From: Lachnospiraceae bacterium
Lineage (GTDB): Bacteria > Bacillota > Clostridia > Lachnospirales > Lachnospiraceae
Assembly: GCA_017468395.1 (NCBI GenBank)
Contig: JAFUIR010000011.1
Coordinates: 124,001 to 188,000, forward strand
Reading direction: 5' to 3'
DNA length: 64,000 bases
Below, piece after piece: positions 4,296 to 22,204 of this stretch. The notes below the pieces were generated by a model. The model ran no database searches. It saw only the letters and a list, made by a program, of their open reading frames with translations, and had not been told where the DNA came from. Position 1 is the first letter of the stretch. Every line of letters starts with the position of its first letter. A program made the translations under genes and the position numbers.

Positions 4296-5729
4296 ATGGC
4301 AGAGAAGAAATTAGTGGAAGCAATTACCTCCATGGAGGAAGATTTTGCCCAGTGGTATACGGACGTGGTGAAAAAAGCAGAACTCATCGACTATACCAGC
4401 GTAAAGGGTTGTATGGTTATCAAGCCTGCAGGTTATGCGATTTGGGAGCTTATTCAGAAACAACTTGATGACAGATTTAAAGAGACAGGGGTAGAAAATG
4501 TATACCTGCCCATGTTCATTCCTGAGAGTCTGCTCCAGAAAGAAAAAGACCATGTGGAAGGTTTTGCGCCGGAAGTAGCATGGGTCACACATGGCGGTCT
4601 GCAGCCTTTGCAGGAGAGACTTTGTGTAAGACCTACTTCCGAGACTTTATTCTGTGATTTTTATAAAAATGATATCCAGTCTTACCGTGATTTGCCCAAG
4701 GTTTATAACCAGTGGTGCTCTGTGGTGCGTTGGGAAAAAGAAACAAGACCCTTCCTTCGTTCCAGAGAATTTTTGTGGCAGGAAGGTCACACCGCCCATG
4801 CTACAGCGCAGGACGCTGAGGCACGTACCATTCAGATGCTGAATGTTTATGCGAAGTTCTTGGAAGAAGTGCTTGCGATTCCTGTTGTAAAGGGTCAGAA
4901 GACCGAAAAAGAAAAATTTGCAGGTGCGGTAGCAACCTATACTATTGAAGCCCTGATGCATGACGGTAAAGCTTTGCAGTCCGGTACAAGCCACAATTTT
5001 GGCAGCGGTTTCGCAGAAGCTTTCGGCATCCAGTTTACAGATAAAGACAATACTTTGAAGTATGTTCATCAGACATCCTGGGGTATGACAACCCGTTTGA
5101 TTGGCGCTATTATCATGGTTCACGGCGATAATTCCGGTCTGGTACTTCCTCCCAAGGTGGCACCTACCCAGCTTATGATTGTGCCCATCATGCAGAAAAA
5201 AGAAGGCGTGCTTGATAAAGCTTATGAACTTCGTGATACCTTGAAGAAAAGTTTCCGCGTAAAAGTGGATGACACAGATAAGACTCCCGGCTGGAAGTTT
5301 GCAGAAGCAGAGATGAGAGGATATCCTCTTCGTCTGGAAATCGGTCCTAAGGACATTGAAGCAGGTAAGTGCGTACTTTGCCGCCGTGACAACGGAGAAA
5401 AAATAGAAGTTGCTTTGGATGAAGTGGAAGCAAAAGTGGGCGAACTTTTGGAGACTATCCAGAAAGAAATGCTGGAGAGAGCAAGAGCCCACAGAGAAGA
5501 GCACACTTACGAAGCAACCACCATGGAAGAATTTGAAAATCTTTTCAATACCAAGTCCGGTTTTGTAAAGGCAATGTGGTGCGAAGACCAGGCCTGCGAG
5601 GATTTGATTAAAGAAAAACTTAGTGTTACAAGCCGTTGTATGCCTTTTGAACAGCAGAATCTGTCCGACAAATGCGTATGTTGCGGAAAACCTGCCAAAA
5701 AGATGGTGTACTGGGGCAAAGCATACTAA
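4296..5729 (+). CDS. proS: prolyl-tRNA synthetase (archaeal/eukaryotic-type)
   Basis: A 477-residue class II synthetase charging tRNA-Pro with proline. It is of the shorter archaeal/eukaryotic-like type that lacks the bacterial editing insertion between motifs 2 and 3. Motif 2 is visible in [20 protein letters not shown] (near 145-165), motif 3 around [15 protein letters not shown] (near 275-290), the anticodon-binding domain after about 290, and the type-specific C-terminal zinc-like cysteines ([18 protein letters not shown]) ending in the usual WGKAY. The GGGAGAG ribosome binding site precedes the ATG. It is under the proline T-box. Only 26 bases and no terminator separate it from the following esterase, so read-through into that gene is likely. 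Confidence 0.96.
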
Positions 5730-6692: not shown

Positions 6693-9032
6693 ATGATATT
6701 CGGTAACGGATGCTGGTTGCAAAAAGAAGGTTGCGGTTGTTTTTCCCCGCAGGAGATTTATTTTGTAAAAGTTGAGGAAACAAAAGTAACACTTTGTCTT
6801 CCGACCACGCATATTACAAGCCGTGGTGCTACCTTGGGCGGAATCAATCTGACCATGGTGATTACTTCCCCTGCTCCCGAAGTACTTCGCGTGCGCACTT
6901 ACCACCATATGGGTGCTTTGAAAAAAGGTCCCGAATTTGAATTGGAGCAGACAGAGCAGCTTCCCCTGACAGTACAGGAAAACGAAGATACCCTGACAGT
7001 ACAGAATGGTTCTTTGTGCCTGGAAATGAACAAAAAACAGTGGTCCATGACCTATAAGAGAAATGGTGAAGTGATTACCAAATCCGCAGCAAAAGATTTG
7101 GCTTGCATGAAGACGGATTGGAAGGGTGATTACTATGATAAAGGCGATGGCGTAAATACATATATGCGTCAGCAGTTGTCCATGAGCGTGGGTGAGTTGA
7201 TTTACGGTATGGGCGAGAGATTTTCTGCCTTTGTAAAGAACGGACAGAGTGTGGATATCTGGAACGAAGACGGCGGTACCAGCACCAATCAGTCCTATAA
7301 AAACATTCCTTTCTATATTTCCAATAAAGGTTATGGTGTGTTTGTAAACCATGCGGAAAATGTGTCCTTTGAAGTGGGTACGGAACAGGTTTCAAAGGTA
7401 GAATTTTCTGTGGAAGGCGGTTATATGGATTACTATCTGTTTAACGGTCCTACCATGAAGGAAGTTCTGACCCGTTATACAGATTTGACAGGCAAGCCTT
7501 CCCTGCCTGCTCCTTGGACTTTCGGACTGTGGCTTTCCACATCCTTTACAACCAATTATGACGAGCAGACGGTTATGAGTTTTATCGATGGTATGTTAGA
7601 CCGCGGTATTCCTCTTAGAACCTTCCATTTTGACTGTTTCTGGATGAAAGAATTCCATTGGACAGATTTTGAATGGGACAGCAGAGTTTTCCCTGATCCG
7701 GAAGGAATGCTTAAGAGAATTAAAGATAAAGGCCTGAATATTTGTGTGTGGATTAACTCTTACATCGGTCAGGAAGCATCTACTTTTGCGGAAGGAATGG
7801 AAAAGGGATATTTTGTAAAACGTCCAAACGGCGATGTATGGCAATGGGATATGTGGCAGCCCGGCATGGCATTGGTTGACTTTACAAACCCTGAGGCATG
7901 CAAGTGGTATAAGGCTCATTTGGCGAGACTTCTTGATATGGGTGTAGACTGCTTTAAAACAGACTTTGGTGAGAGAATTCCCACGGAAGATGTGGTTTAT
8001 TTTGATGGCTCTGACCCTAAGAAGATGCATAACTATTATACTTATCTTTACAATAAGACTGTTTATGAAGTGTTGGAAGAAAAGCGCGGCAAAGGGGAAG
8101 CGGTTCTCTTTGCACGTTCCGCTACCGCAGGGGGTCAGAAATTCCCTGTACACTGGGGCGGTGACTGCTGGTCAGACTATGTTTCCATGGAACAGAGTTT
8201 GCGTGGCGGTCTGTCTCTGCTGATGTCCGGTTTCGGCTATTGGGCACATGATATCGGCGGATTTGAGAATACTTCCACAGCAGATGTTTACAAACGCTGG
8301 GTTGCCTTTGGACTCTTGTCTTCCCACAGCCGTCTCCACGGCAGTACTTCTTACCGTGTGCCTTGGGTGTACGATGAAGAAGCAGTAGATGTGGTACGTT
8401 TCTTTACTAAATTGAAAGCAAGATTAATGCCTTATTTGTTTGAAACGGCAATTTATACAAACAGAACCGGTATCCCTACCATGCGCAGTATGGTAATCGA
8501 ATTCACAGAGGATAAGACTTGTGGATTCGTGGATAAACAGTATATGCTTGGTGATAGTTTGCTGGTGGCACCTATCTTCAATGAAGACAGCATGGCAGAA
8601 TATTATCTGCCTGTAGGAACATGGACCAACTTCTTTACGGGAGAAAAGGTAGAAGGCGGTAAGTGGATTACTGAGAAACATGATTACTTAAGTATTCCTC
8701 TTATGGTAAAAGAAGGTTCCATTGTGCCTTTGGGCATGCGGGATGATGCACCGGATTATGATTATGCGGACGGCGTGGAACTTCGCGTTTATGAACTGCA
8801 AAATGACAAGACTGTCATGAAATCCGTGTATAACATGCAACAGGAAGAAGATTTGAAAATTACGGCTGTTAAACTTAATAACACAATTACTATGGATGTG
8901 CAGACAGCAAAAGCATACACAATTCGATTGGTAAATGTGACAGGGGTGTCAGCGGAAGGCGCAACCATTTGCGTAGAAGGAAATGATACAATTCTTGTTC
9001 CTACAGCCAACCATATTGTGGTACAATTATAA
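6693..9032 (+). CDS. yicI: GH31 alpha-xylosidase (YicI-type)
   Basis: A 779-residue cytoplasmic retaining glycosidase that removes alpha-linked xylose, typically from xyloglucan oligosaccharides (isoprimeverose units). An N-terminal beta-sandwich (about 1-250) precedes the (beta/alpha)8 barrel. The nucleophile is Asp424 in FKTDFGERIP and the acid/base is Asp491 in HWGGDCWSD, a spacing close to that of E. coli YicI. The segment before the nucleophile (MWQPGMALVDFTNP) is also characteristic. C-terminal beta domains follow. There is no signal peptide, so it acts on imported oligosaccharides. A GGAGGG ribosome binding site precedes the ATG. GH31 includes alpha-glucosidases too, but the YicI-like motifs favour xylosidase activity. 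Its neighbours are a sensor kinase, importer and GH5 enzyme. Confidence 0.88.
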   Translation: MIFGNGCWLQKEGCGCFSPQEIYFVKVEETKVTLCLPTTHITSRGATLGGINLTMVITSPAPEVLRVRTYHHMGALKKGPEFELEQTEQLPLTVQENEDTLTVQNGSLCLEMNKKQWSMTYKRNGEVITKSAAKDLACMKTDWKGDYYDKGDGVNTYMRQQLSMSVGELIYGMGERFSAFVKNGQSVDIWNEDGGTSTNQSYKNIPFYISNKGYGVFVNHAENVSFEVGTEQVSKVEFSVEGGYMDYYLFNGPTMKEVLTRYTDLTGKPSLPAPWTFGLWLSTSFTTNYDEQTVMSFIDGMLDRGIPLRTFHFDCFWMKEFHWTDFEWDSRVFPDPEGMLKRIKDKGLNICVWINSYIGQEASTFAEGMEKGYFVKRPNGDVWQWDMWQPGMALVDFTNPEACKWYKAHLARLLDMGVDCFKTDFGERIPTEDVVYFDGSDPKKMHNYYTYLYNKTVYEVLEEKRGKGEAVLFARSATAGGQKFPVHWGGDCWSDYVSMEQSLRGGLSLLMSGFGYWAHDIGGFENTSTADVYKRWVAFGLLSSHSRLHGSTSYRVPWVYDEEAVDVVRFFTKLKARLMPYLFETAIYTNRTGIPTMRSMVIEFTEDKTCGFVDKQYMLGDSLLVAPIFNEDSMAEYYLPVGTWTNFFTGEKVEGGKWITEKHDYLSIPLMVKEGSIVPLGMRDDAPDYDYADGVELRVYELQNDKTVMKSVYNMQQEEDLKITAVKLNNTITMDVQTAKAYTIRLVNVTGVSAEGATICVEGNDTILVPTANHIVVQL

Positions 9033-9129: not shown

Positions 9130-10929
9130 ATGAAAAAGAAGAGAAAGAACCGGCTGATTGAAATTATCAGCAAAGCGAAAATCAGAACCCAGTTGTATGT
9201 GATATATACAATCGCTGTGTTTTTGCCGATTTTGGTAATCGGTTCTTTTTTGATGGTTAATACGGGAAATCTGCTGACAAACTATTACCGTGATTTGTTG
9301 GAATCGGACAATCTGCGTGTAAAGACTATTCTCTTTGAAATTACGAACCAGATATATAATATTTCCGAAGTTATTTCTTTTGAAGAGGCATTGCAGGATG
9401 TTCTTACGGTGGAGACGCCTCCGGAAAAAAGTTACACCAATCCGGTGTTGTCCTACTCTACCATCAACAATTATCTTATTACCCATGCAGAAATCGAGGA
9501 CATTACTATTTACACAGATAATCCTTATGCGGCGGAATATATGCATTTTGAACTGGCGGATGAGACGGTGCAGCAGGAGGAGTGGTATAAAAAAGCAGTG
9601 AGACAGGCAAGTATTTTCTGGCTGCCCATTGAGAGATTGGATAAATACGGAAACTCTTACTGGAATTTGTGTCTGGTAAGAAAAGTTACGGTTATTGATA
9701 GTGATTACGAGGCGGTTTTGGTAATCCGTATCAGTGACAACTATCTGCAAACACGTATTCAGAGTAATGAACACAGGATTGAAGTGGCATCAGATGACGG
9801 AAAGGTGTTTTACAGTTCAGAGAGACGCGGATATGGTAAGGCACCTACGGCATACATTGATTATACGGACCGCTACTACACATATGAAGGTTCTGTCTGG
9901 GAGGAAGAAGTTAAGTTATTTACGAATATTTCCGCTCTTCAGATTTATCAGTCGGAGAGCACTCTGTACATAGTAACCATGAACGAAAGTGCCTATGGGG
10001 ATATCCGGGGAATTGTGGTGACTTGTCTGTTGATTATTTTGGTGGCAATGGCGCTTCCGGCGATTTTGATTCACTATTTTACGGGTTATTTTACGGGGCG
10101 AATTAATGTCCTTCGTCTGGAAATGAAAAAAGCCAGTAAGGAAGATTATGATATTATTCCGGCATACGGCGGCGAGGATGAATTGTCCGAAGCCTTTGCG
10201 GACTTGCAGGTCATGGTACAGCGCATTAAGGAAAAAGATGCCAAAATGTATGCGGTTAAGATTAAGGAGCAGCAACTTCTCAATGAACAGCAGGTAATGG
10301 AGATGAAGATGCTTGCCAGCCAGATTAATCCCCATTTCCTTTATAATACGTTGGAAAGTATCCGTATGCAGGCTCTCACAGCCGGTAACAAAGAAGTGGC
10401 GGGCAGTGTAAAACTTCTGGGAAAATCCATGCGTTACGTGCTGGAAAACACCGGTACTTCTTCCATTACACTGCAAAAAGAACTGGATTATATTGAAACT
10501 TATCTGAACATCCAAAAAATCCGTTTCCGGGACAGAGTAAATTATTCACTGGTAATTGAGGAAGGATTAGTATTGGAGGATTATTTGGTTTTGCCTCTGC
10601 TTTTGCAGCCGGTTATCGAAAATGCCATTTTGCATGGTCTCGAGCAGACGGAGAGTGGTGGGCGCATTGAAGTCAAAGTATCCTTGCAGGAGGACAATTT
10701 TTTACAGATAGTTATCGTTGACAACGGATGCGGTATGAACGAGGAAGAGTTGATGGCTCTTAGACAGAAGATCAGGGAGCAGAAAATTGATACCAGCAGC
10801 AGTATCGGTCTTAGCAATATTAACCGGAGAATTAAGTTGTGTTATGGAGAGTTGTACGGTATGAGCATCAACAGTCATCCGGACGAGGGAACGGAGGTTA
10901 TCCTGCTTCTTCCGATAAAATATGCATAG
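9130..10929 (+). CDS. YesM-type sensor histidine kinase
   Basis: A 599-residue membrane sensor. It has a first transmembrane helix at about 20-42, a large extracellular Cache-like sensing region (about 43-285), a second helix at about 290-315, a HAMP linker, then the LytS/YesM-type phosphoacceptor region with His402 in QINPHFLYNTLES. The ATPase domain shows the N box in ENAILHGLEQ, the G1 box in VDNGCGMNEEE and the G2 box in SSIGLSNINRR. Such kinases sense extracellular glycans or solute-binding proteins. No regulator gene follows; the likely partner is the divergent YesN-type regulator at 22267-23838. Position next to GH31 and the repeat protein supports a role in controlling this locus. Confidence 0.92.
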   Translation: MKKKRKNRLIEIISKAKIRTQLYVIYTIAVFLPILVIGSFLMVNTGNLLTNYYRDLLESDNLRVKTILFEITNQIYNISEVISFEEALQDVLTVETPPEKSYTNPVLSYSTINNYLITHAEIEDITIYTDNPYAAEYMHFELADETVQQEEWYKKAVRQASIFWLPIERLDKYGNSYWNLCLVRKVTVIDSDYEAVLVIRISDNYLQTRIQSNEHRIEVASDDGKVFYSSERRGYGKAPTAYIDYTDRYYTYEGSVWEEEVKLFTNISALQIYQSESTLYIVTMNESAYGDIRGIVVTCLLIILVAMALPAILIHYFTGYFTGRINVLRLEMKKASKEDYDIIPAYGGEDELSEAFADLQVMVQRIKEKDAKMYAVKIKEQQLLNEQQVMEMKMLASQINPHFLYNTLESIRMQALTAGNKEVAGSVKLLGKSMRYVLENTGTSSITLQKELDYIETYLNIQKIRFRDRVNYSLVIEEGLVLEDYLVLPLLLQPVIENAILHGLEQTESGGRIEVKVSLQEDNFLQIVIVDNGCGMNEEELMALRQKIREQKIDTSSSIGLSNINRRIKLCYGELYGMSINSHPDEGTEVILLLPIKYA

Positions 10930-11020
10930 CTGTAATTTTTACACTCATAAATGTAAAAAAATGTGCGTATAAAATGTAAAAAAGGATAGGTTTTTTTGAG
11001 GTAAAAATTCATATAGAATG

Positions 11021-11069
11021 GTCTTTGTAAAGACTCTTGGCACATGTCGTTTTTATCGAAAACGATTAA
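11021..11069 (+). promoter_or_regulatory. two operator-like palindromes upstream of the repeat protein
   Basis: GTCTTTGTAAAGAC (11021-11034) is a 6-base-arm palindrome. ATCG-AAAA-CGAT (11055-11066, extendable to TTATCG/CGATTAA) is a second, LacI/CcpA-operator-like repeat, though it does not match the standard cre consensus. Both lie in the 177-base gap before the abundant-looking surface protein gene. Function is inferred from symmetry only. Confidence 0.35.
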
Positions 11070-11106: not shown

Positions 11107-13350
11107 ATGAAAAAGACATTGAAGAGATTTTTCGCTTTCCTGTTTGCATTTGCAATGATGTTCACAACACTTTCATTGCCTGTAGATGCAGCAGAAGACG
11201 GATACCTTATGTATCTGGGTTACGGCGGAAACAACGACTGGGCATACCAGTTCAATTCCCCTAACGCAGATAACAATACCGGAGACGTTGTTGCTACAAC
11301 TGCTTATGCAAACCCCGGTGACACAGTTTCCATCAGCATTACACTCCCCGCAGCAACTGACAAAACATGGTGGATGGCACCTGTTCTTGTTGCTGAAGGT
11401 GTAACAAACGTAGATTACACAATCAACAGCATCAAACTTGATGGCGTTGATGTGCTTGCAAATGTAGACCTTGCAGCAGGCGATGCTTGGTGGTATGAAG
11501 CTACAGGTGCATACACAAAAGATGAGGCAATTCGTCTTGCAGGTGGATTCAATGAGTGGGGCACAAAATACTTTGCAGAAAGCCCTGTAGGATTCACAAC
11601 AGCTGAATACAATATCACACTGAACGCAGTTGATACAGGAAGTGCAGCAGGCGGCGCAGTTGCATCAGACGCAACTTTTGATATGTTCTTAGGTTACGGC
11701 GGTAACAACGATTGGTTATATCAGTACAATTCCCCCAATGCAGATAACAACACAGGTGATGTTGTTGCTACAACTGCACAGGCTAAAGCAGGCGATACAG
11801 TTACAATCGGTATCGAATTACCTGCAGCATCCGACAAAACATGGTGGATGGCACCCGTTCTTGTTGCTGACGGCGTAGGTACAGTAACAAACGTAGATTA
11901 CACAATCAACAGCATCAAAGTAGATGGCGTTGACGTACTTGCAAATGTAGATCTTGCAGCAGGCGATGCTTGGTGGTATGAAGCTACAGGTGCGTATACT
12001 AAAGAACAGGCAATCCGTCTTGCAGGCGGTTACAATGAGTGGGGCACAAAATACTTTGCAGAAGGTCCTGCAAACTTCACAAAAATTGAATACAATATTA
12101 CTTTGAACAAAGTAGAAGTTGGTGGTGGCGGTGCTACTCTCAGCACAGAAGAATACCAGGCATTTATCGCATTCGGCGGAAACAATGACTGGGGTATCCA
12201 GTACTATGGCGAAAACAACGCAGGTAACTCCGGCGATGTAAAAGCTACAAATGGCGTTCTTAAGAACGGCGAAACAACAGTTCTTTCACTTGAATTCGGT
12301 ACAGCGCCTGATTACACATGGTTCGTTGCTCCTTGTATGGTAGTTGAGAACGTATTGGGAATCGCTCCGGAAACAACATTTGATGTAAAAGTATTTATTG
12401 ACGGCGTAGAAGTAGCTGCAGATTTGACAGCAGGCGATATGTTCTGGGCAGAAGCTACAGGTGACTATACAGAATGTATCCGTATTGCAGGCGGTTATAA
12501 TGAATGGGGCACACAGTACATTTCAAGTCCTGCAAACTTTAAAAAGATTGAGTTCCATATCACACCTACTATCTATGTTCAGGAAGTAGTTGTAGAAGAA
12601 ACTGTTCAGGCTGAGTTTGATGTAAACGGTACATACCACGCATACCTCGGTGTTCAGACACCCACATGGATTTTCCGTAACCAATGGGACGATGCTACAT
12701 ATGGTAAAGATTCCGGTTGCTTCGACCAAGTTGGTATTGTAGATAATGCTTCCGGAGAATGGGTAGGTCTCGGCGGTACATTCACAGACGTAGAAATCAC
12801 AGGAAACGGTACATACACAGTTAAACTGGAAGGCTATGATTTCTCCGGTACTTATGCAGATCAGGCTATCCTTGGTGCAGATGGTCTTTTCAACCTGTTG
12901 TTCCTTTCCACAGATCTTCCTTTGAATGATGCTTGTGTAGTTTCTAACGTTACACTGAAGATGGATGGAAAAGAAATTGCAACTCAGGCAACACCTTTCC
13001 TTGATCCTGATAAAGCAGCAACACAGAACATTCTCTTTGCTAATATCTGGAACAATGAAATCGAAGCGCTTCCTTACTATGCAGCACCTACAAACAGCAT
13101 TGAAATCACATTTACAGTAAGCGGTTTCGCTAAGGATGCAGTTGTTGCTGAACCTGAAGTTGAGACTCCTGTTGAGTCTGAGCCTGTAGTAGATACTCCT
13201 GTAGAATCTGAACCCGCTGATGCTCCTGCAGAAGAACCCGCAGACGATGCAGGAATTAATTGGTTACCTATCATCGTCGTTGCTGCAGTAGTTGTAGTAG
13301 CAGCTGTGGTAGCAGGCGTAGTAGTATCCAAAAAGAAAAAAGCAAACTAA
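11107..13350 (+). CDS. secreted membrane-anchored repeat protein, putative carbohydrate-binding scaffold
   Basis: A 747-residue surface protein of no family I recognise. A signal peptide (about 1-28, ending VDAA) is followed by three related modules of about 155 residues, starting near 31, 190 and 350. Each carries GGNNDW near its start, an aromatic patch (WWMAP or WFVAP) in the middle, AGDAWWYEATG or a variant, then AGGYNEWGT and a closing EYNITL strand. A fourth, divergent module spans about 505-690. A Pro/Glu/Val-rich spacer (about 692-722) leads to one transmembrane helix (about 722-742) and a short basic tail KKKKAN; there is no LPxTG motif. Tryptophan-rich beta modules suggest glycan binding. 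It has its own leader and a strong terminator, and sits between a sensor kinase and a sugar importer. Module four resembles a module in the GH5 enzyme at 19319-22204. Confidence 0.75.
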   Translation: MKKTLKRFFAFLFAFAMMFTTLSLPVDAAEDGYLMYLGYGGNNDWAYQFNSPNADNNTGDVVATTAYANPGDTVSISITLPAATDKTWWMAPVLVAEGVTNVDYTINSIKLDGVDVLANVDLAAGDAWWYEATGAYTKDEAIRLAGGFNEWGTKYFAESPVGFTTAEYNITLNAVDTGSAAGGAVASDATFDMFLGYGGNNDWLYQYNSPNADNNTGDVVATTAQAKAGDTVTIGIELPAASDKTWWMAPVLVADGVGTVTNVDYTINSIKVDGVDVLANVDLAAGDAWWYEATGAYTKEQAIRLAGGYNEWGTKYFAEGPANFTKIEYNITLNKVEVGGGGATLSTEEYQAFIAFGGNNDWGIQYYGENNAGNSGDVKATNGVLKNGETTVLSLEFGTAPDYTWFVAPCMVVENVLGIAPETTFDVKVFIDGVEVAADLTAGDMFWAEATGDYTECIRIAGGYNEWGTQYISSPANFKKIEFHITPTIYVQEVVVEETVQAEFDVNGTYHAYLGVQTPTWIFRNQWDDATYGKDSGCFDQVGIVDNASGEWVGLGGTFTDVEITGNGTYTVKLEGYDFSGTYADQAILGADGLFNLLFLSTDLPLNDACVVSNVTLKMDGKEIATQATPFLDPDKAATQNILFANIWNNEIEALPYYAAPTNSIEITFTVSGFAKDAVVAEPEVETPVESEPVVDTPVESEPADAPAEEPADDAGINWLPIIVVAAVVVVAAVVAGVVVSKKKKAN
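11205..12120 (+). repeat. tandem intragenic duplication (modules 1 and 2 of the repeat protein)
   Basis: Two units of about 475 bases (roughly 11205-11645 and 11680-12120) are nearly identical over long stretches, for example around ACAAAACATGGTGGATGGCA and the segment encoding GVDVLANVDLAAGDAWWYEA. This indicates a recent in-frame duplication. The third module (about 12140-12560) is clearly diverged. Confidence 0.8.
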
Positions 13351-13380
13351 TTCTTAGGAAATAAAGATGTGTTTTGTTAG

Positions 13381-13412
13381 AAGGATGGGGCATTTTGCCC
13401 CATCCTTTTTTG
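13381..13412 (+). terminator. strong terminator after the repeat protein
   Basis: AAGGATGGGGCA (13381-13392) pairs perfectly with TGCCCCATCCTT (13396-13407) across a 3-base loop and is followed by a T-run. The rest of the gap to 13566 holds a TATAAT at 13500-13505 that may be the -10 of the transporter operon, with no convincing -35. Confidence 0.93.
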
Positions 13413-13566: not shown

Positions 13567-15018
13567 ATGAAGAATATGACAGGAAAGGAAAGAATTGCGA
13601 ACTATATGTATTTTGTCGTTCGTATCGCAACATTGCTTTCTGTGGTAATGGTATTCTTTCCGGCATTTAATCCGGGTAAAATCAGCGGTTTGATTAACAA
13701 GAATATGTCTTTGTTTACAACAGCGATTGCCTATGACAGTTTAGTGGAGAACTGCGTACGTGCCTTTGATAAGGGCTGGGTAAGCGAAACTTCTTTCATT
13801 ATTTTGTTTGTTTCATGTATGCTTTTGGTTATCGGTATTGTTGGTGCTGTGGCAATGGCATGTATGTCTCTTGGAAACAACAAATTTAAAAAATTTGGTA
13901 ACTGGTTTGGCTTTGCAGGAGCCTTATTACAGATTGGCGGTCTTGTAGGTATTTATGTAGCGTATACCCAGATGGCAGCTACAGACAGACCTGAAAAAGT
14001 AGAACCGGCATTCGCAACAGCAATTTGGATGGCATATATGGTACTTGCGGCGATTATTCTTATATTGCTTATAGCAATTCAAATTCTTTTGCCTAAGGTA
14101 GAAAAAAGTGAGAAATTTGAAATGTTATCCAAGTACAAACTCTTTCTTATGTTCATGCCTTTTGCAGCGCTGACTTTTGTATTCAGTTATCTACCTTTGT
14201 ATGGTTGGAGATATGCATTCTATGATTATAAAGCAGGTGGAACGCTTTCTGCGGACAATTTTGTTGGTTTTAAATGGTTTACCATGTTGTTTGAAAGTGA
14301 AGCGACCAGAGGAGATATCGTCAGAGTTCTCCGCAACACACTGGCGATGAGTGGACTTGGAATCGGTACCAGCTGGTGTGCAATGGCATTTGCTATTTTC
14401 CTTAATGAGATTAAGAGTGTCAGAGTGAAAAGATTTGTACAGACCTTCACAACCATTCCTAACTTTATCAGCTGGGTTTTGGTTTACGCGATTGCTTTCT
14501 CCATTTTCTCTACAGATGGATTTATTAGCAACTTGCTCGTAAATGCAGGTGTTTGGGAGTCCGGTGTCAACATGTTGATGGGTGATGACCATATTTGGCT
14601 TAAGATGTTGGCATGGGGTATGTGGAAAGGTATCGGTTGGAGTGCCATTATTTACATAGCCGGTATTTCTGGTATTGACCAGCAGCTTTACGAAGCAGCT
14701 ACTGTTGATGGTGCGGGAAGATTCCAGAAGATGTGGCACATCACTGTGCCCGGTCTGACACCTACCTATATGGTACTGTTGCTCATGTCAGTTGCAGGTA
14801 TCCTCAGTAATGGTATGGATCAGTATCTGGTATTCGCAAATCCTACTAATACACACGTTATCGAAGTACTTGATCTGTATGTATATAAACTGGGTATTGA
14901 AGGTGGCTCCATTCCTTTATCTACCATGGTAGGTATGGTTAAGTCTGTAGTCAGTGTAGTATTGCTCTTTGGCGCTAACACCATTTCTAAAGTGGTTCGT
15001 GGCGAAAGTATTGTATAA
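13567..15018 (+). CDS. CUT1 ABC sugar transporter permease (LplB-type) with N-terminal membrane extension
   Basis: A 483-residue inner-membrane permease of a carbohydrate ABC importer. The canonical part (about 185-483) begins with YKLFLMFMPFAALTFVFSYL and contains the EAA loop EAATVDGAGRFQKMWHITVP that docks the ATPase. Unusually, about 180 residues precede it with four predicted helices (about 17-36, 75-100, 112-130, 150-172). Typical LplB-like permeases are near 300-320 residues, so this is an extended form. The AGGAGG site is 6 bases before the ATG. It forms an operon with the next permease (14-base gap) and the lipoprotein. No ATPase gene is present; such systems usually share a MsmK-like ATPase encoded elsewhere. 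Confidence 0.9.
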   Translation: MKNMTGKERIANYMYFVVRIATLLSVVMVFFPAFNPGKISGLINKNMSLFTTAIAYDSLVENCVRAFDKGWVSETSFIILFVSCMLLVIGIVGAVAMACMSLGNNKFKKFGNWFGFAGALLQIGGLVGIYVAYTQMAATDRPEKVEPAFATAIWMAYMVLAAIILILLIAIQILLPKVEKSEKFEMLSKYKLFLMFMPFAALTFVFSYLPLYGWRYAFYDYKAGGTLSADNFVGFKWFTMLFESEATRGDIVRVLRNTLAMSGLGIGTSWCAMAFAIFLNEIKSVRVKRFVQTFTTIPNFISWVLVYAIAFSIFSTDGFISNLLVNAGVWESGVNMLMGDDHIWLKMLAWGMWKGIGWSAIIYIAGISGIDQQLYEAATVDGAGRFQKMWHITVPGLTPTYMVLLLMSVAGILSNGMDQYLVFANPTNTHVIEVLDLYVYKLGIEGGSIPLSTMVGMVKSVVSVVLLFGANTISKVVRGESIV

Positions 15019-15032
15019 GGAGGTGTTAAGAA

Positions 15033-16004
15033 ATGGCGAAAACAGCACAGGAAAAATTAGATGCAAAAGCAGAAAAAGAGTATTATAAAAAGCATAAAAG
15101 AGCCTATAAATTAACACCGGGTGACATAGTATTTAACATTTTAAACTATACATTTTTTATTGTATTTACCCTTTGTTGTTTATTCCCTTTTTACTATTTG
15201 TTTATTAATACCATTTCTTCCAATGATTTGGTTCAGAAAGGTTTAATTAACTTTGTTCCCAGGGGAATTAACTTTGACAACTATATCAGTTTGCTTAAAG
15301 CAGATGAAGTCGGTCAGGCGTTCCTGATTTCTTTTGGAAGAACACTCCTTGGAACAGCTCTGATGGTTGCGGCTTCTGCATTTGTGGGATATGTGGTTAC
15401 GAAACAGGAGATGTGGCACAGAAAGTTCTGGTACAGATTTCTGGTAATCACAATGTATTTCAACGCAGGTACAATTCCCTGGTTTTTGAACATGTCCATG
15501 CTGGGGCTTACCAATAACTTTATGGCTTACATCATTCCCGGTATTGTAGCTCCTTACAATATCATCCTGGTTAAGACTTACATTGAGTCTATTCCCGGTG
15601 AATTGGAGGAGAGTGCATTTATCGACGGTGCCGGCTATTGGAAGATTTTCAGAGAGATTATCTTGCCGCTTTGTAAACCGATTCTGGCAACCATTGCCAT
15701 CTTTGGTGCAGTAGGACATTGGAATTCCTTTACGGATTCCTTGATTTTGATGCAGGGTGCACCTGAATTGCACACATTACAGCACAAACTGTATACATAT
15801 TTGAATACAAGTTCTAACCTCAGTGCTCTTATGAACCCGGGAGCAAGTGCTTCCGCGTTGGAGGGTATGATGCAGAGCGCCTTGAACGCGAAGGTAATCA
15901 AATATACCATTTCCATGGTATCAATCATACCGATTTTGATGGTTTATCCCTTCATGCAGCGTTACTTTGAGAAAGGTATTATGTTGGGTGCCGTGAAAGG
16001 TTAA
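15033..16004 (+). CDS. CUT1 ABC sugar transporter permease (YtcP-type)
   Basis: The 323-residue second permease of the importer. There are six predicted helices, the first at about 42-65, and the EAA loop EESAFIDGAGYWKIFREIILP at about 190-210. The C-terminus (MQRYFEKGIMLGAVKG) is typical of YtcP/AraQ-like permeases for complex oligosaccharides. The charged N-terminal tail (residues 1-30) is rich in Lys/Glu. An AAGGAGG site overlaps the end of the upstream permease gene, so the two are co-translated and form the heterodimeric channel with the lipoprotein at 16041. Confidence 0.93.
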   Translation: MAKTAQEKLDAKAEKEYYKKHKRAYKLTPGDIVFNILNYTFFIVFTLCCLFPFYYLFINTISSNDLVQKGLINFVPRGINFDNYISLLKADEVGQAFLISFGRTLLGTALMVAASAFVGYVVTKQEMWHRKFWYRFLVITMYFNAGTIPWFLNMSMLGLTNNFMAYIIPGIVAPYNIILVKTYIESIPGELEESAFIDGAGYWKIFREIILPLCKPILATIAIFGAVGHWNSFTDSLILMQGAPELHTLQHKLYTYLNTSSNLSALMNPGASASALEGMMQSALNAKVIKYTISMVSIIPILMVYPFMQRYFEKGIMLGAVKG

Positions 16005-16040: not shown

Positions 16041-17762
16041 ATGAAAAAGATGAAGAAAGTTTTAGCTTTAATGCTGGCAGTTGTTATGGCCTGCGGAATG
16101 CTCACAGCTTGTGGCGGAACCGAAGCAGGAAATAGCGGCTCCGGTGAAGGCGGTAACAGTTCTAAAGGTGAAGAAATCACTTTGGAAGTTTACAGCCAGT
16201 TGGCAAACTATTCCGGCGAAATGAAGGGTTGGTTTGCAAAAATTTTGAAAGACAAATGGAATGTAAAAATCAACCTGATTCCTGAATCCGGCGGTGTATA
16301 TGATACACGTATGGAATCCGGAGACTTGGGCGATATCGTAGTTTGGGGTGCTGACGGCGAAGATTATGTGAATGCTGTTAACGCAGGCTTGCTCTTTGAT
16401 TGGGAAGAGGATGATTTGGTTCAGGATTATGGTCCTTACATTTATGAAAACATGAAAGATGCATTGGAGAAAAACAGAGAAGTTTCCGGAACCGGTAAAG
16501 TTTACGGTTTTGGTCACAGTGTAGCACGCAGTTCTGAAAGTCATGATGCATTCTTCTATACATGGGATCTTCGTTGGGATCTTTATTCACAGCTCGGTTA
16601 TCCTGAAGTTAGAAACATGGATGACATGATGGAAGTTTTGGAAGATATGAAAGAAATTTGCCCTACAGATGACAATGGTAAAGAGACATACGCTATGTCA
16701 CTTTGGCCTGATTGGGATGGTAACTATGTAATGTATGTTAAATCGATGGCAACAGCTTACTATGGTTACGATGAAATGGGCTTTGGTCACTACAATGTAA
16801 CAAACGGCGAATACTATGATGCACTTGCAGAAGGTAGCCCTTATCTTGAAATGTTGGCATGGTTTAACGAACTGTACAGAAGAGATCTGCTTGATCCCGA
16901 TTCAATGACTCAGATATACACAGATATGATTGAAAAAGTACAGAATGGAGGAGTATTCTTCTCTATCTTCAACTATGCCGGATCTCTCGCATACAATAAA
17001 GAAGAGCATTACGCTGAAAACAAAATTATGGAAAGCCTTGTTCCTTCAGAGGCAAATCCTATCGTTTACGGTTTGAGTACACTTGGTGGAAACAGAGTAT
17101 GGTCCATCGGTGCTAATACACAGTATCCTGAAGTTTGTATGGAAATCATTAACTGGTTGTCCACACCTGAAGGTCGTCTGACAATCGACTACGGTCCTAA
17201 AGGTCTTTGCTGGGATTACGATGAAAATGGCAAAACATACCTTACAGATTTTGGTAAAACATGTGCAGAAGACAGAACAACTCTGATGCCTGATGAGTGG
17301 GGCGGAGCTACATTTAACGATGGCTCTTTCCAGGTAAACAACATCACATGGGCAGCTGCTGACACTAACCCTGAATCCGGTGAACCCTACGACAGAACAT
17401 ACTGGGCAAGTGAGCAGGTTGAAGGCGGACGTTGTGCAACAGAAGCTGATTGGAGAGAAAAGACCGGTTGTGTAACAGTCAATGAATACATGGAAAATAC
17501 AAATTACGTTGTTGATGTACAGACAAGTTTTTCTGAGGGCTCAAAGTCAGATGCCCTGAAGACAAAATGGGAGCAGGTTGCTACCTGTCTGAAAGAATAC
17601 AGTTGGAGAGCAATCTATGCGAAAGACGAAGCTGAATTCAAAAAGATTGTAGCCGAAATGCGTGGTAAAGCAATGTCTTACGGTTATAATGAGTGTATCC
17701 AGTGGTGTAAAGAAGAGGCGGCTAGAAAGAATGCCCTTCAGGAGCCTTTGAGACAGAAATAA
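16041..17762 (+). CDS. extracellular solute-binding lipoprotein of the CUT1 importer
   Basis: A 573-residue lipoprotein. The lipobox LTAC places the acylated cysteine at residue 24, followed by a Gly/Ser-rich linker (about 25-46) and a large family 1-type binding protein. Aromatic clusters (YTWDLRWDLYSQLGYPEV, WPDWDGNY, EYSWRAIYAKDEAEF) suit stacking on sugars. Its length, larger than classical maltose-binding proteins, is usual for LplA/YtcQ-like receptors of complex oligosaccharides. It is the last of the three transporter genes and is followed by a weak terminator that may let part of the transcription continue. The paralogue at 24045-25781 shares these motifs. Ligand is unknown; a xyloglucan or beta-glucan oligosaccharide is inferred from context. 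Confidence 0.92.
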   Translation: MKKMKKVLALMLAVVMACGMLTACGGTEAGNSGSGEGGNSSKGEEITLEVYSQLANYSGEMKGWFAKILKDKWNVKINLIPESGGVYDTRMESGDLGDIVVWGADGEDYVNAVNAGLLFDWEEDDLVQDYGPYIYENMKDALEKNREVSGTGKVYGFGHSVARSSESHDAFFYTWDLRWDLYSQLGYPEVRNMDDMMEVLEDMKEICPTDDNGKETYAMSLWPDWDGNYVMYVKSMATAYYGYDEMGFGHYNVTNGEYYDALAEGSPYLEMLAWFNELYRRDLLDPDSMTQIYTDMIEKVQNGGVFFSIFNYAGSLAYNKEEHYAENKIMESLVPSEANPIVYGLSTLGGNRVWSIGANTQYPEVCMEIINWLSTPEGRLTIDYGPKGLCWDYDENGKTYLTDFGKTCAEDRTTLMPDEWGGATFNDGSFQVNNITWAAADTNPESGEPYDRTYWASEQVEGGRCATEADWREKTGCVTVNEYMENTNYVVDVQTSFSEGSKSDALKTKWEQVATCLKEYSWRAIYAKDEAEFKKIVAEMRGKAMSYGYNECIQWCKEEAARKNALQEPLRQK

Positions 17763-17831: not shown

Positions 17832-18479
17832 ATGAAATCCTTTTTTAGTGTAGACGGTAAGTTCTACAGGTTTATATCCACCCTTTGGGACATGATAAAA
17901 CTTAATTTCCTGTGGATGCTGTTCAGCCTTCCCATTGTAACAATTGGGGCGGCAACGGTAGCAGCATACAGTGTAACACTGAAGATGGTGGATGATACAG
18001 AGGGGTATGTGGGAAGACAGTTTATTAAGGCATTTAAAGAGAACTGGAAACAGGGTATTCCTCTAGGGCTTTTAGCACTTGTAGCTACCTATGCGGTTTA
18101 CTTGGATTTTCAACTTTTCAATGCCGTGGAAGGAAACCCGATTCTATTCCTTATCATGGGTATGATAGCAGTATTTGTATTCACAATGGCATTTATTTAT
18201 GCATTCCCTTTGAGTGCCAGATATGAAAACACACTGATTGGAACTATCAAAAATTCCGTGAATATTGCCACAAGATATTTTATGAGAACTATCGCACTTG
18301 TAATTGTTTTGGCTGTGGAAATTGTAATATTCTGGTTTAACTCTACGACCCTGCTGTTTTGGCTGTTAATAGGACCGGCTTGTCTGATGCTGACAGTAAG
18401 CGGATTTGCCATGTACTTTTTCAGACAGATTGAAAAAGAGCCGGGTGCGGTAATAGAGAAGGAGGAAGAACAGGAATGA
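17832..18479 (+). CDS. YesL/DUF624 family membrane protein
   Basis: A 215-residue integral membrane protein with about five hydrophobic segments (near 22-45, 77-95, 103-125, 150-172 and 175-198). It begins with the family-like MKSFFSVDGKFYRFISTLWD and has the LNFLWMLFSLPIVTIGAAT block found in YesL proteins. YesL-like genes accompany oligosaccharide importers and YesM/YesN systems, but no biochemical role is established. Its stop codon overlaps the start of the esterase gene (ATGA), so the two are translationally coupled. Confidence 0.88.
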   Translation: MKSFFSVDGKFYRFISTLWDMIKLNFLWMLFSLPIVTIGAATVAAYSVTLKMVDDTEGYVGRQFIKAFKENWKQGIPLGLLALVATYAVYLDFQLFNAVEGNPILFLIMGMIAVFVFTMAFIYAFPLSARYENTLIGTIKNSVNIATRYFMRTIALVIVLAVEIVIFWFNSTTLLFWLLIGPACLMLTVSGFAMYFFRQIEKEPGAVIEKEEEQE

Positions 18480-19318: not shown

Positions 19319-22204
19319 ATGAAAACAAATAAGTTATGGGGAAAATTCCTTGCGGGAGTACTTAGTTTGGGGCTGCTTTTCGGCGGCATGTTTTCAGATA
19401 TGGCTGCATTGCAGGTTAAGGCGGCAGACAACTCCCAGACTGTCAGTGCAAAGATGCCGTTCCGCCAAATGACTGCCGATGAAATGGTGGCAGAGATGGG
19501 AACCGGTTGGAACCTTGGTAATACCATGGATGGACATACCGGATTTACACCTAACGAGACACTTTGGCAGAATGTAGAGACAACCCAGGAACTGATTAAA
19601 GCAGTTCATGATATGGGCTTTAACACAATCCGTATTCCTGTTACCTGGGGAACCATGATTGATGATTCCAACAACTATGCAATTGATGAGAAATGGATGA
19701 GCCGTGTGCAGGATATTGTGGACTATGCCATCAATATGAATATGTACGCAATCATTAACGTTCATCATGATGGTGCAGAGCAGTCCGGATGGCTTCGTAT
19801 TGCGGCAGAGGATTTAGACCCTGTCAAGGAGAAATACGAAGCGGTTTGGAAACAGATTGCAGAACGTTTCAAAGATTATGATGAGCATCTGATTTTTGAA
19901 TCTATGAACGAGGTATGTGGCCCTGAACAGAACATAGCAGAAGATACTGCTTTGATTATGCAGTTTAACCAGATTTTTGTAGATACTGTCCGTGCAACAG
20001 GTTCTAACAACGAAGAGAGATGGTTGTCTGTACCCGGCCGTTACACAAATATCGTAAATACAACCAAAGAAGAAGCCGGTTTCGAGCTTCCTACAGATAC
20101 AGTGGAAAAGAGACTGTTCGTAGCAGTTCACTATTATGATTGGTCCTTTGGTATGCTAGAGAGTATGGGTGTAACCAATTTCACCTACAACAGTGTACCT
20201 GTTCTTCAGTCTGATTTTGTACAGTTAGAAAAATTTACATCTAATGGTATTCCCGTCATCTTGGGTGAGTATGGTGCAATCAATAAACTGAACGATGTTG
20301 ACAGAACCTACCACTTACAGATTGTAAACCGTATGTGCCAGCAGATTGGTATTGTTCCTGTATACTGGGATCAGGGATGGTTTGATTTGTCCATGTCTCC
20401 CGACTATAGTTATACACTGGTAGACAGAGATAAATGTGAAGCAATTTATCCTAATATTATTGCAGGTATTCTTCGAGGTCTTTACTTTGAAGGAAATGAT
20501 GATTTGTCAGACGTTGTTCATGGCGAGACCATCACTTCTCTCGCAGACCTGGGAACAGCAAGTGAAAGCTCTCTTTCCATGCAGATTGGTGATGTGAAAG
20601 ACATTTCCTTAAGTGTGGATAAGTCCTCAGCAAATGACGTTGTTTTGTGGAAGAGCAGCAACGAAACAGTAGCAAGTGTTAATGCAGACGGATCTGACCT
20701 TAGCAAATGGTGTGCAAACGTACACGCAACAGGCATCGGTAACGCAGTAATTACAGCATATTCCCAGAGTGGTAGCGCAGTGCTTGAAATCCCCGTAGAG
20801 GTAAAAGCAAAAGTAGCTACAGTTCCCTGCACAGCAATTACAGCAGAGCAGGAAAGTTACGTTTTGACAGAAGGACAATCCGTATTCCTGAATGCATCCA
20901 TGTCACCTGCTGATACAGATGCATACCTTACATACCGTTCTTCCAATACAGACGTAATCTCTGTATCTAAGCTCGGTAAAGTTGTGGCAAAAGCAGTTGG
21001 TAGTGCTTATGTTATTATTACTTCCTCTGACGGAAAAACCGCCGTAGTACCCGTAACAGTAGAGGCGGCGGAAGTACAGGCGCAGATTGCATTAGGTTTG
21101 AATGTATACTATAACGACAGCAACCTCAACTATTTCAGCAACGAAGTCGCAAGTCAAGTGATTACAGTTAGCGAAGATGGTACATACACATTGTCCTTCG
21201 ACTGTGCAACAGACCTTTCCGCAAATGCAATCTCCGCAGGTGTAAGTAGTCTTACAAACCTGACAGCTATTTATATTAAAGATGACAGTGTAACAAAAGG
21301 TCTTGCTAAAAAATCTCCTCTTGTTTCCTGTGATATTATTTATGATTCCATTGTTATTGACGGCGTTCCTTTCGAAGTGCATATGGACGCGCCTAAGTCC
21401 GCAATTAAGGCATCCGGTATCTTTGATACCAACGACCCGATTAACTCTTGGGATGGTTCCGTTATCGAAGAAGTGTTTGTTAACAACCATGTTCTGAACT
21501 TCACAGAGCTTCCTAATCCTCAGAAGATTGAAGTTACTTTCACGCTCAGTAACCTTGTATTCGAAGAAGGTGCCGGAGAAGTGGCAACTGTGCAGACAGA
21601 GAGTATAAAAGTAAACGGAGTAAATACAGTGACTGTAGACAATACAGCACCTGTAGAAATTTCTGTTATCGCTACTCCTTCAGGAGCTGGTAAAATAACC
21701 TTCGTATCATCCAACACAGCAGTTGTTTCTGTAGATAACACAGCAGTGACAGTGGGAAGCGATGGAATAGCTACCACTACCATTTACGCTCATGGAGAAG
21801 GCAAAGCAGTAATTACAGCATACGCTGAAAATGGTATTGCGACTGTAATTAGTGTTTCCGCAACAATTAAAGAAGTGGAAGAAACACCTGCAGAAACACC
21901 CGCAGAAGATACTGAGGTTTCCGTAACCCCTGAAACGGAGGGAAGCGAAGTTGAGCCTGAGAGCGAAGAGCCGAAAGCACCTGTTGAAAGTACAGATGAT
22001 ACTCAGCAAGAAAAACCTGATACTGATTCGGGATTAAGTACAATGCAACTTATTCTGATTATCGTTGGAATTATTGTTCTTGGTGGAGCAGTATTCTTTA
22101 TTACTCTGAAGATTGCCGGGGGAAGTCCTGCAAAACCTGAAGAAAAGAAAGAAGAAGCTTCCGTAGCAGCAACTCCGACTGAAGAGACAGGCAAAGAAGA
22201 ATAA
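19319..22204 (+). CDS. membrane-anchored GH5 endo-beta-glucanase with Ig-like and shared surface modules
   Basis: A 961-residue surface enzyme. A signal peptide (about 1-36) precedes a GH5 catalytic domain (about 45-395) with GTGWNLGNTMDGH, NVHHDG, acid/base Glu198 in FESMNEV and nucleophile Glu317 in LGEYGAINK. The sequence resembles subfamily GH5_4, which contains xyloglucanases and lichenases. Two BIG2-type Ig-like domains (about 415-500 and 505-580), an unassigned module (about 585-755) related to module four of the repeat protein at 11107, and a third Ig-like domain (about 760-855) follow. A Glu/Pro/Thr stalk leads to a transmembrane helix (about 905-927) and an acidic cytoplasmic tail. 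No LPxTG motif. It probably cuts a plant beta-glucan at the cell surface and supplies the importer upstream. Confidence 0.9.
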   Translation: MKTNKLWGKFLAGVLSLGLLFGGMFSDMAALQVKAADNSQTVSAKMPFRQMTADEMVAEMGTGWNLGNTMDGHTGFTPNETLWQNVETTQELIKAVHDMGFNTIRIPVTWGTMIDDSNNYAIDEKWMSRVQDIVDYAINMNMYAIINVHHDGAEQSGWLRIAAEDLDPVKEKYEAVWKQIAERFKDYDEHLIFESMNEVCGPEQNIAEDTALIMQFNQIFVDTVRATGSNNEERWLSVPGRYTNIVNTTKEEAGFELPTDTVEKRLFVAVHYYDWSFGMLESMGVTNFTYNSVPVLQSDFVQLEKFTSNGIPVILGEYGAINKLNDVDRTYHLQIVNRMCQQIGIVPVYWDQGWFDLSMSPDYSYTLVDRDKCEAIYPNIIAGILRGLYFEGNDDLSDVVHGETITSLADLGTASESSLSMQIGDVKDISLSVDKSSANDVVLWKSSNETVASVNADGSDLSKWCANVHATGIGNAVITAYSQSGSAVLEIPVEVKAKVATVPCTAITAEQESYVLTEGQSVFLNASMSPADTDAYLTYRSSNTDVISVSKLGKVVAKAVGSAYVIITSSDGKTAVVPVTVEAAEVQAQIALGLNVYYNDSNLNYFSNEVASQVITVSEDGTYTLSFDCATDLSANAISAGVSSLTNLTAIYIKDDSVTKGLAKKSPLVSCDIIYDSIVIDGVPFEVHMDAPKSAIKASGIFDTNDPINSWDGSVIEEVFVNNHVLNFTELPNPQKIEVTFTLSNLVFEEGAGEVATVQTESIKVNGVNTVTVDNTAPVEISVIATPSGAGKITFVSSNTAVVSVDNTAVTVGSDGIATTTIYAHGEGKAVITAYAENGIATVISVSATIKEVEETPAETPAEDTEVSVTPETEGSEVEPESEEPKAPVESTDDTQQEKPDTDSGLSTMQLILIIVGIIVLGGAVFFITLKIAGGSPAKPEEKKEEASVAATPTEETGKEE

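Follow-up and report, generated by a model that had tools for sequence, protein, structure and literature searches.

Our analyses of a 64,000-nucleotide stretch of DNA from a Lachnospiraceae bacterium (contig JAFUIR010000011.1, positions 124,001 to 188,000; hereafter the window) have identified a gene at positions 11107–13350 of the forward strand whose product, referred to below as the surface protein (SP), is probably a glycan-binding protein without catalytic activity, anchored in the membrane and belonging to a Gram-positive locus for the utilisation of xyloglucan or related beta-1,4-glucans. The modules of SP, judged from their sequences, constitute an apparently undescribed superfamily resembling carbohydrate-binding modules (CBMs), which is distinct from the family CBM65. 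SP is real and not an artefact; the functional class in which we place it is already known, and the modules and their architecture are the new part. This assignment is supported by features of SP itself, namely a secretion signal, four modules (of two types) predicted to lie outside the cell, a linker and a transmembrane (TM) helix, and further by the occurrence of related modules fused to enzymes of glycoside hydrolase family 5 (GH5) and by a constant neighbourhood that includes a permease of an ATP-binding cassette (ABC) importer.

SP is encoded by a single open reading frame (ORF) of 747 amino acids (aa), in which a signal peptide is followed by three modules of one type (M1, M2 and M3; type A), a fourth module of a different type (M4; type C), an acidic, proline-rich linker, a TM helix and a KKKK tail. 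The signal peptide (residues 1–28; 11107–11190) was assigned by eye and from hydropathy: the 19-residue windows that begin at residues 8–11 reach values of up to 1.99, and a cleavage-like site between VDA and AE was called by eye, without SignalP. M1 spans residues 35–173 (11209–11625), M2 residues 193–334 (11683–12108), M3 residues 352–488 (12160–12570) and M4 residues 505–677 (12619–13137), and the linker (residues 678–716; 13138–13254) leads to the one C-terminal hydrophobic segment, in which the windows beginning at residues 712–726 exceed 1.6, with a maximum of 3.36, before the sequence SKKKKAN. The TM helix (about residues 717–740, from hydropathy) and the basic tail together occupy 13255–13347, and no LPXTG-like or NPXTG motif was seen in SP upon inspection by eye. 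Both a signal peptide and a terminal TM helix in place of a sortase signal had been proposed in the original prediction, which was made from the sequence alone, and both are borne out here. A similar C-terminal anchor, consisting of a TM segment followed by lysines, was observed on a pullulanase-like and two beta-helix-like proteins (named by eye) in other genomes of the genus. No enzyme family exceeded its cut-off for SP in Pfam or NCBIfam, and with its signal, its TM helix and the adjoining importer genes, SP shows the sequence characteristics of a non-catalytic surface glycan-binding protein.

The three type A modules are true repeats whose similarity lies far above chance. Local alignment of M1 with M2 gives a score of 651 (120/142 residues identical), that of M1 with M3 a score of 302 (63/134) and that of M2 with M3 a score of 329 (68/140), against a maximum of 63 in 500 shuffles for each pair. 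These results uphold the three clear repeats of the original prediction, but its fourth, diverged repeat and its view of all four modules as one kind are not sustained. M4 aligns to M1–M3 with scores of 34–39, inside the range of its shuffles (maxima 63–66), and a profile–profile comparison of types A and C gives 1.6%, which is equalled by 4 of 100 column-shuffled controls and is not significant; M4 is accordingly not a detectable copy of M1–M3. The blocks GGNNDW, WWMAP and AGDAWWYEATG are not found in M4, and M3 carries variants of two of them (viz. TWFVAP for WWMAP and AGDMFWAEATG for AGDAWWYEATG).

Two other types of module have been distinguished among the relatives, viz. type B, which occupies N-terminal slots in 12 of the 26 SP relatives with a full module series (6 of the series BAC and 6 BBC), and type D, which is found within GH5 enzymes. 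Profile comparisons link type B to type A (94.8%), to type C (97.9%) and to type D (95.3%), and in each case none of 100 column-shuffled controls reaches the score. The comparison of types A and D gives 4.2% (0/100 controls as high), and that of types C and D, performed on smaller alignments only, gives 46% in global and 12% in local mode. We read these relationships as indicating that the four types probably form one superfamily with type B in the middle, types A and C being joined via B only. A tryptophan near the end of the module is invariant in each type, viz. W125 in type A (43/43 modules), W114 in type B (21/21), W147 in type C (26/26) and W119 in type D (11/11), and the local motifs in which these residues lie (YNEWG, YNEW, NIWN and NSWDG) suggest that the four positions are equivalent. 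Type A additionally conserves W16 and W103 in 43/43 modules and W59 in 42/43.

Comparison of the modules with Pfam, NCBIfam and the sequences of the PDB, the last with profiles of all four types, revealed nothing above cut-off or chance. This agrees with the earlier statement that no family could be recognised, and the Pfam hidden Markov model (HMM) search that had been proposed as a check returned no match over cut-off, either to an enzyme or to a non-carbohydrate domain. Matches of SP below the cut-offs of Pfam and NCBIfam (SLBB, E 0.0011 and 19.2 vs 27 bits; ribosomal S17; Orthopox_B11R; zbmA) and weak PDB matches (beta-dystroglycan, to the tail; MacA; MORN repeats; Gala; L24; Ral-B; and others, with a best E of 0.099) were judged to be due to chance. 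CBM65 was compared directly because it is linked to GH5 and binds xyloglucan. The Pfam model CBM65_1 (PF18259) has no match in SP or in the GH5 of the window at E≤1, nor in 21 type B modules at E≤10, and the same model finds CBM65 elsewhere in the genome of the window, with four matches over cut-off. In profile–profile comparisons, which covered types A and B, CBM65 gives 0.2% with type A (equalled by 41/100 shuffles) and 0.85% with type B (equalled by 6/100). In view of the absence of PF18259 matches and of these shuffle-level scores, we reject an identity with CBM65. It is rather unlikely that the modules belong to some other CAZy CBM family that already carries a number but is not represented in Pfam, NCBIfam or the PDB, or to a close extension of such a family (e.g. 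the novel CBM of R. albus Ra1831). The accessible portion of one study reports CBMs, linked to GH5, whose sequences bear little similarity to those already known (PMC4954948), as this explanation would expect, whereas the four profiles yielded no convincing PDB sequence match and no link to CBM65 beyond shuffles was obtained. This explanation concerns the name of the family and is compatible with a glycan-binding role of SP. Among the literature matches listed, the text available contains no description of the module family or of the locus, and a text search cannot find an unnamed family.

The case for carbohydrate binding is stronger than an aromatic-rich composition alone would make it, because GH5 glucanases carry fused relatives of these modules, both within the SP loci and in genomes from other families of the class. 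Related loci contain 16 GH5 genes (GH5 confirmed by Pfam in 16/16), and 15 of these carry a module, which is of type D in 10 genes and of type B, at the C-terminus, in 5; the sixteenth gene (L051) is cut by the contig end. The D module precedes the GH5 domain in two of the loci (L047 and L048), where the gene runs beyond the stretch examined. In the window, the GH5 gene (19319–22204, forward strand) encodes a protein with a C-terminal hydrophobic segment, recognised by eye, and contains a type D module at 21095–21562 (forward strand), of the same superfamily as type B. Among solved structures, its catalytic domain is closest to the xyloglucanase 2jep (best PDB match, E 6e-71); endoglucanases, one of them of broad specificity, rank below. 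A GH31 enzyme of the alpha-xylosidase type, encoded upstream (6693–9032, forward strand), has its best PDB match in YicI (E 2e-274), which we take to be an alpha-xylosidase. Since the GH5 lies nearest to 2jep and the GH31 matches YicI, xyloglucan is the likely substrate of the locus, other beta-1,4-glucans being possible.

Fusions of GH5 with type B modules also occur outside these loci. A second GH5 from the genome of the window, a lipoprotein (L087 4909–6756; G000 contig C3), has a type B module at its end, and GH5-B fusions are present in genomes from another family of the order (G141) and from another family of the class (G488). Attachment to carbohydrate-active enzymes, a criterion for CBMs, is thus observed for types B and D. 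Genome G488 further encodes a 270-aa protein (L105 6812–7624, reverse strand) with one C-type module (by eye; E 2e-8 with the B profile) and an NPXTG wall anchor (Rumino_NPXTG, 31.7 vs a cut-off of 23.5 bits); a CBM2-GH5 cellulase and a CBM2 protein are encoded within about 2–4 kb of it, and two other genes intervene. A nearby lipoprotein (L105 7946–8854, forward strand) has a similar-looking GDGTYTV region and is a possible further member of the superfamily. In G141, a TM-anchored protein with one module (L090 9491–10483, reverse strand), which resembles type A by eye only, is encoded between the GH5-B gene and a solute-binding-like lipoprotein, beside an ABC importer.

A search with SP matched 14 of 99 genomes (its own included) at E≤0.001; three of these (G026, G048 and G086) match only from residue 621 onwards, in the tail and anchor part, and are not counted as relatives, which leaves module relatives in 10 other genomes. 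Type C modules are present in 24 of the 138 genomes of the genus, including that of the window, and in 9/66 of the more complete ones. A scan of contigs with SP as the query yielded 28 loci, titled Lachnospiraceae, Acetatifactor, Eubacterium and other Bacillota metagenome-assembled genomes (MAGs), nine of which are the same records as in the 99-genome search. An HMM scan of the 26 full module series among them identified the arrangements AAAC (5), AAC (8), AC (1), BAC (6) and BBC (6), with type C as the last module in 26/26; two contig pieces of one MAG (L037 and L054) were left out of this count. In 295 genomes of the order, a sample poor in members of the genus, type A matched in the genome of the window only. 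The B profile (E≤1e-4) matched 2/295 genomes of the order and 5/391 of the class, the genome of the window being included in both counts. Three of the class-level matches are weak (G401 and G581, E about 4e-5, and G400), and the gene concerned in G401 is a GH5 with Big_2 that looks D-like by eye. The G400 contig (C28; L106 2741–9437) encodes a series of small secreted proteins that end in hydrophobic anchors; one of these proteins (a 231-aa ORF) has the weak type B match. No match to SP was found in the plasmid collection.

A tree of 43 type A modules, whose bootstrap support is not fully settled, contains a supported group of 20 rows (100/99), in which M3 of the window is found together with 11 of 15 last-slot modules and each of the 6 single modules. 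M3 is referred to a membrane-proximal subtype. Lineage-specific pairs are formed by M1 and M2 of the window (96/96) and likewise in L034, L036, L051 and L052. The slot labels are clustered on the tree without being clean (13 changes vs 22.4 in shuffles). Repeated duplication of modules fits a requirement for avidity, and recombination between copies would give the same picture.

These observations also bear on a second explanation, in which the modules are docking or stalk domains that bind other proteins. SP would then act as a scaffold bringing the GH5 and the importer together, and the type B and D modules of the GH5 enzymes would serve for homotypic docking and not for sugar binding. The presence of one superfamily on SP and on the GH5 enzymes of the same loci could also result from homotypic docking, the small module protein of G141 adjoins a GH5-B gene, and G488 encodes a GH5-B as well as a C-module protein, on separate contigs. 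However, in the window's genome the second GH5-B is encoded on a different contig, and no protein of the SP kind was seen in the 16 kb read there. Avidity for a repeating polymer accounts better for the conserved tryptophans and for the tandem duplication, specific to individual lineages, of the outer module. We consider a docking function improbable.

The gene order in the window is a BD-FAE-type esterase, the GH31, a sensor histidine kinase (9130–10929, Pfam scan), SP, two ABC sugar permeases that both match BPD_transp_1 (permease A, 13567–15018; permease B, 15033–16004), a lipoprotein in the position of a solute-binding protein (16041–17762), a DUF624 membrane protein (17832–18479; MusI-like, below the curated cut-off), a second esterase and the GH5, followed on the opposite strand by an AraC-type response regulator (22267–23838); the kinase, permease, lipoprotein and DUF624 genes are on the forward strand. 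The placement of SP between a sensor kinase and a sugar importer, as given in the original prediction, is accordingly correct. Permease A is the next identified gene 3' of SP, on the same strand, in 26/26 of the loci with downstream sequence (L054 is included; the contigs of L033 and L037 end too early), at a distance of 18–794 bases. In 7/26 loci this gap contains ATG-initiated ORFs of 40–94 aa on either strand, of which the longest belongs to L044. On the upstream side, where 22 loci have 2 kb of sequence or more, the closest identified gene is that of the sensor kinase in 13. This last association would be expected if SP were an accessory, ligand-presenting protein of the kinase, its modules binding glycan in order to signal to the two-component system and not to feed the importer. 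The link to the permease is stricter than that to the kinase, whose gene in two loci (L047 and L048) is situated 3' of that for the solute-binding protein, and such a role is very unlikely. An adhesive function of SP, directed at host mucin or at other bacteria, with a chance placement in the locus, would agree with its surface anchoring, its modularity and its patchy occurrence in the genus, but is hardly credible in view of the constant position beside an ABC permease and the modules shared with GH5.

Several observations weigh against a glycan-binding SP as we have formulated it. All of the evidence for glycan comes from fusion and neighbourhood, and types A and C, of which SP itself is composed, are on no enzyme in the loci examined. 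The profile alignment of types A and B spans 74 columns, about half of the module. The loci were found with SP as the query, so that the counts of adjacency cover carriers of SP only. SP is dispensable, since it occurs in only 24/138 genomes of the genus. Lastly, the specificity for xyloglucan may not be general, because a close GH31 (at least 71% identity) is present in only 11/28 loci, several of which are short, and three loci (L040, L056 and L057) reach the regulator without an intervening GH5.

Some other features of the locus concern its expression and surroundings. Between SP and the ABC operon lies a strong terminator-like hairpin of 14 pairs (13379–13409, forward strand), by which the cell could produce more SP than importer; a hairpin with a T-run is found 3' of SP in 14/27 related loci in a simple scan without a null. 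Upstream of SP, an AT-rich block (10951–11066) contains two ATGTAAAAAA repeats (10951–10986, forward strand; starting at 10951 and 10974, 23 bases apart), the second of which falls within a stretch (10967–10986) that is similar in many related loci, and a palindrome, ATCGAAAACGAT, is located 3' of these repeats, nearer the SP gene. The ATGTAAAAAA repeat block is a possible site for the AraC response regulator. A promoter scan was uninformative (3 found vs 5.9 expected). The lipoprotein at 16041–17762 has no Pfam or NCBIfam match although it lies beside standard ABC permeases, and a second lipoprotein in a solute-binding position (24045–25781) has no NCBIfam match. In the window the glycan locus is preceded by proS (4296–5729), an arrangement also seen in 9/28 related loci, many of the others being cut short; the insertion site is therefore conserved in part of the group.

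If SP is a glycan-binding protein, a plausible sequence of events is as follows. The N-terminal type A modules would stack chains of plant beta-glucan on their conserved tryptophans, with several such modules in a row providing avidity, and the membrane-proximal C module may position the glycan or hand it over. SP would in this manner keep the chains near the membrane-anchored GH5, which would cut them, and the resulting oligosaccharides could pass to the solute-binding lipoprotein and from there to the importer. Inside the cell the YicI-like GH31 would take off xylose, and the sensor kinase and the AraC regulator would turn on the genes of the locus.

Proteins with a comparable role have been described in other systems. 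Sas20 and other non-catalytic starch-binding surface proteins of the Ruminococcus bromii amylosome are, like SP, surface-held, multi-domain polysaccharide binders of a Gram-positive bacterium, according to the portion of the source available (PMC9112005); they differ in binding starch and not beta-glucan and in being held by dockerins and not by a TM helix, and the likeness considered here is one of role. The same applies to SGBP-A/B of the Bacteroides xyloglucan loci, whose presumed role, in the accessible part of PMC12710961, is to hold the glycan beside an endo-xyloglucanase and an importer, in a Gram-negative setting with TonB-dependent transport. The xyloglucan ABC locus of Anaerocellum bescii (Athe_2052-2057) shares with that of the window an ABC importer and a GH31 alpha-xylosidase, but the same excerpts mention no non-catalytic multi-module surface protein (PMC12710961). 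In the available sections on the mixed-linkage glucan locus of Blautia producta, also a member of the Lachnospiraceae, a cell-anchored endo-glucanase, an ABC importer and an AraC regulator are described, but four CBM4 modules are carried by the enzyme itself and no separate binder is reported (PMC10318527). CBM65 is, like types B and D, attached to GH5, in Eubacterium cellulosolvens and its relatives, but has no detectable sequence link to types A and B; xyloglucan is among the polysaccharides bound by CBM65 and by its R. albus relative, as stated in the accessible text (PMC4954948). CBM65 is also present in the genome of the window, in a triple-CBM65 lipoprotein (L088 5919–7838; G000 contig C8) that is itself a non-catalytic multi-CBM surface protein, encoded between ABC permease-like genes and a solute-binding-like lipoprotein (neighbours named by eye) in a locus with another GH5-like gene. 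With this lipoprotein, the Bacteroides surface glycan-binding proteins (SGBPs) and the R. bromii Sas20 in view, the description of SP as a component of an undescribed kind was overstated. The expectation of SusD-like binders at this position was likewise misplaced, as such proteins are, to our knowledge, not expected in Gram-positive bacteria.

How insoluble or long glycans are held at the cell during cutting and ABC-mediated uptake in Gram-positive gut bacteria is less clear than in the Sus system of Bacteroides. The locus in the window is a genetically compact case, in which one gene lies between a sensor and an importer and its modules are related to those of the enzyme. It is possible, although we propose this only tentatively, that the modules form a superfamily of beta-glucan-binding domains with at least four subtypes that have been exchanged between membrane-anchored proteins dedicated to capture and the endo-glucanases encoded with them, and that SP and these enzymes, with the ABC importer, are a Gram-positive functional counterpart of the SGBP/Sus surface complex of Bacteroides. 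If the binding of glycan by SP holds true, these modules would add a family to the known CBMs, and SP would provide a test object for the concept of a dedicated capture protein of ABC importers.

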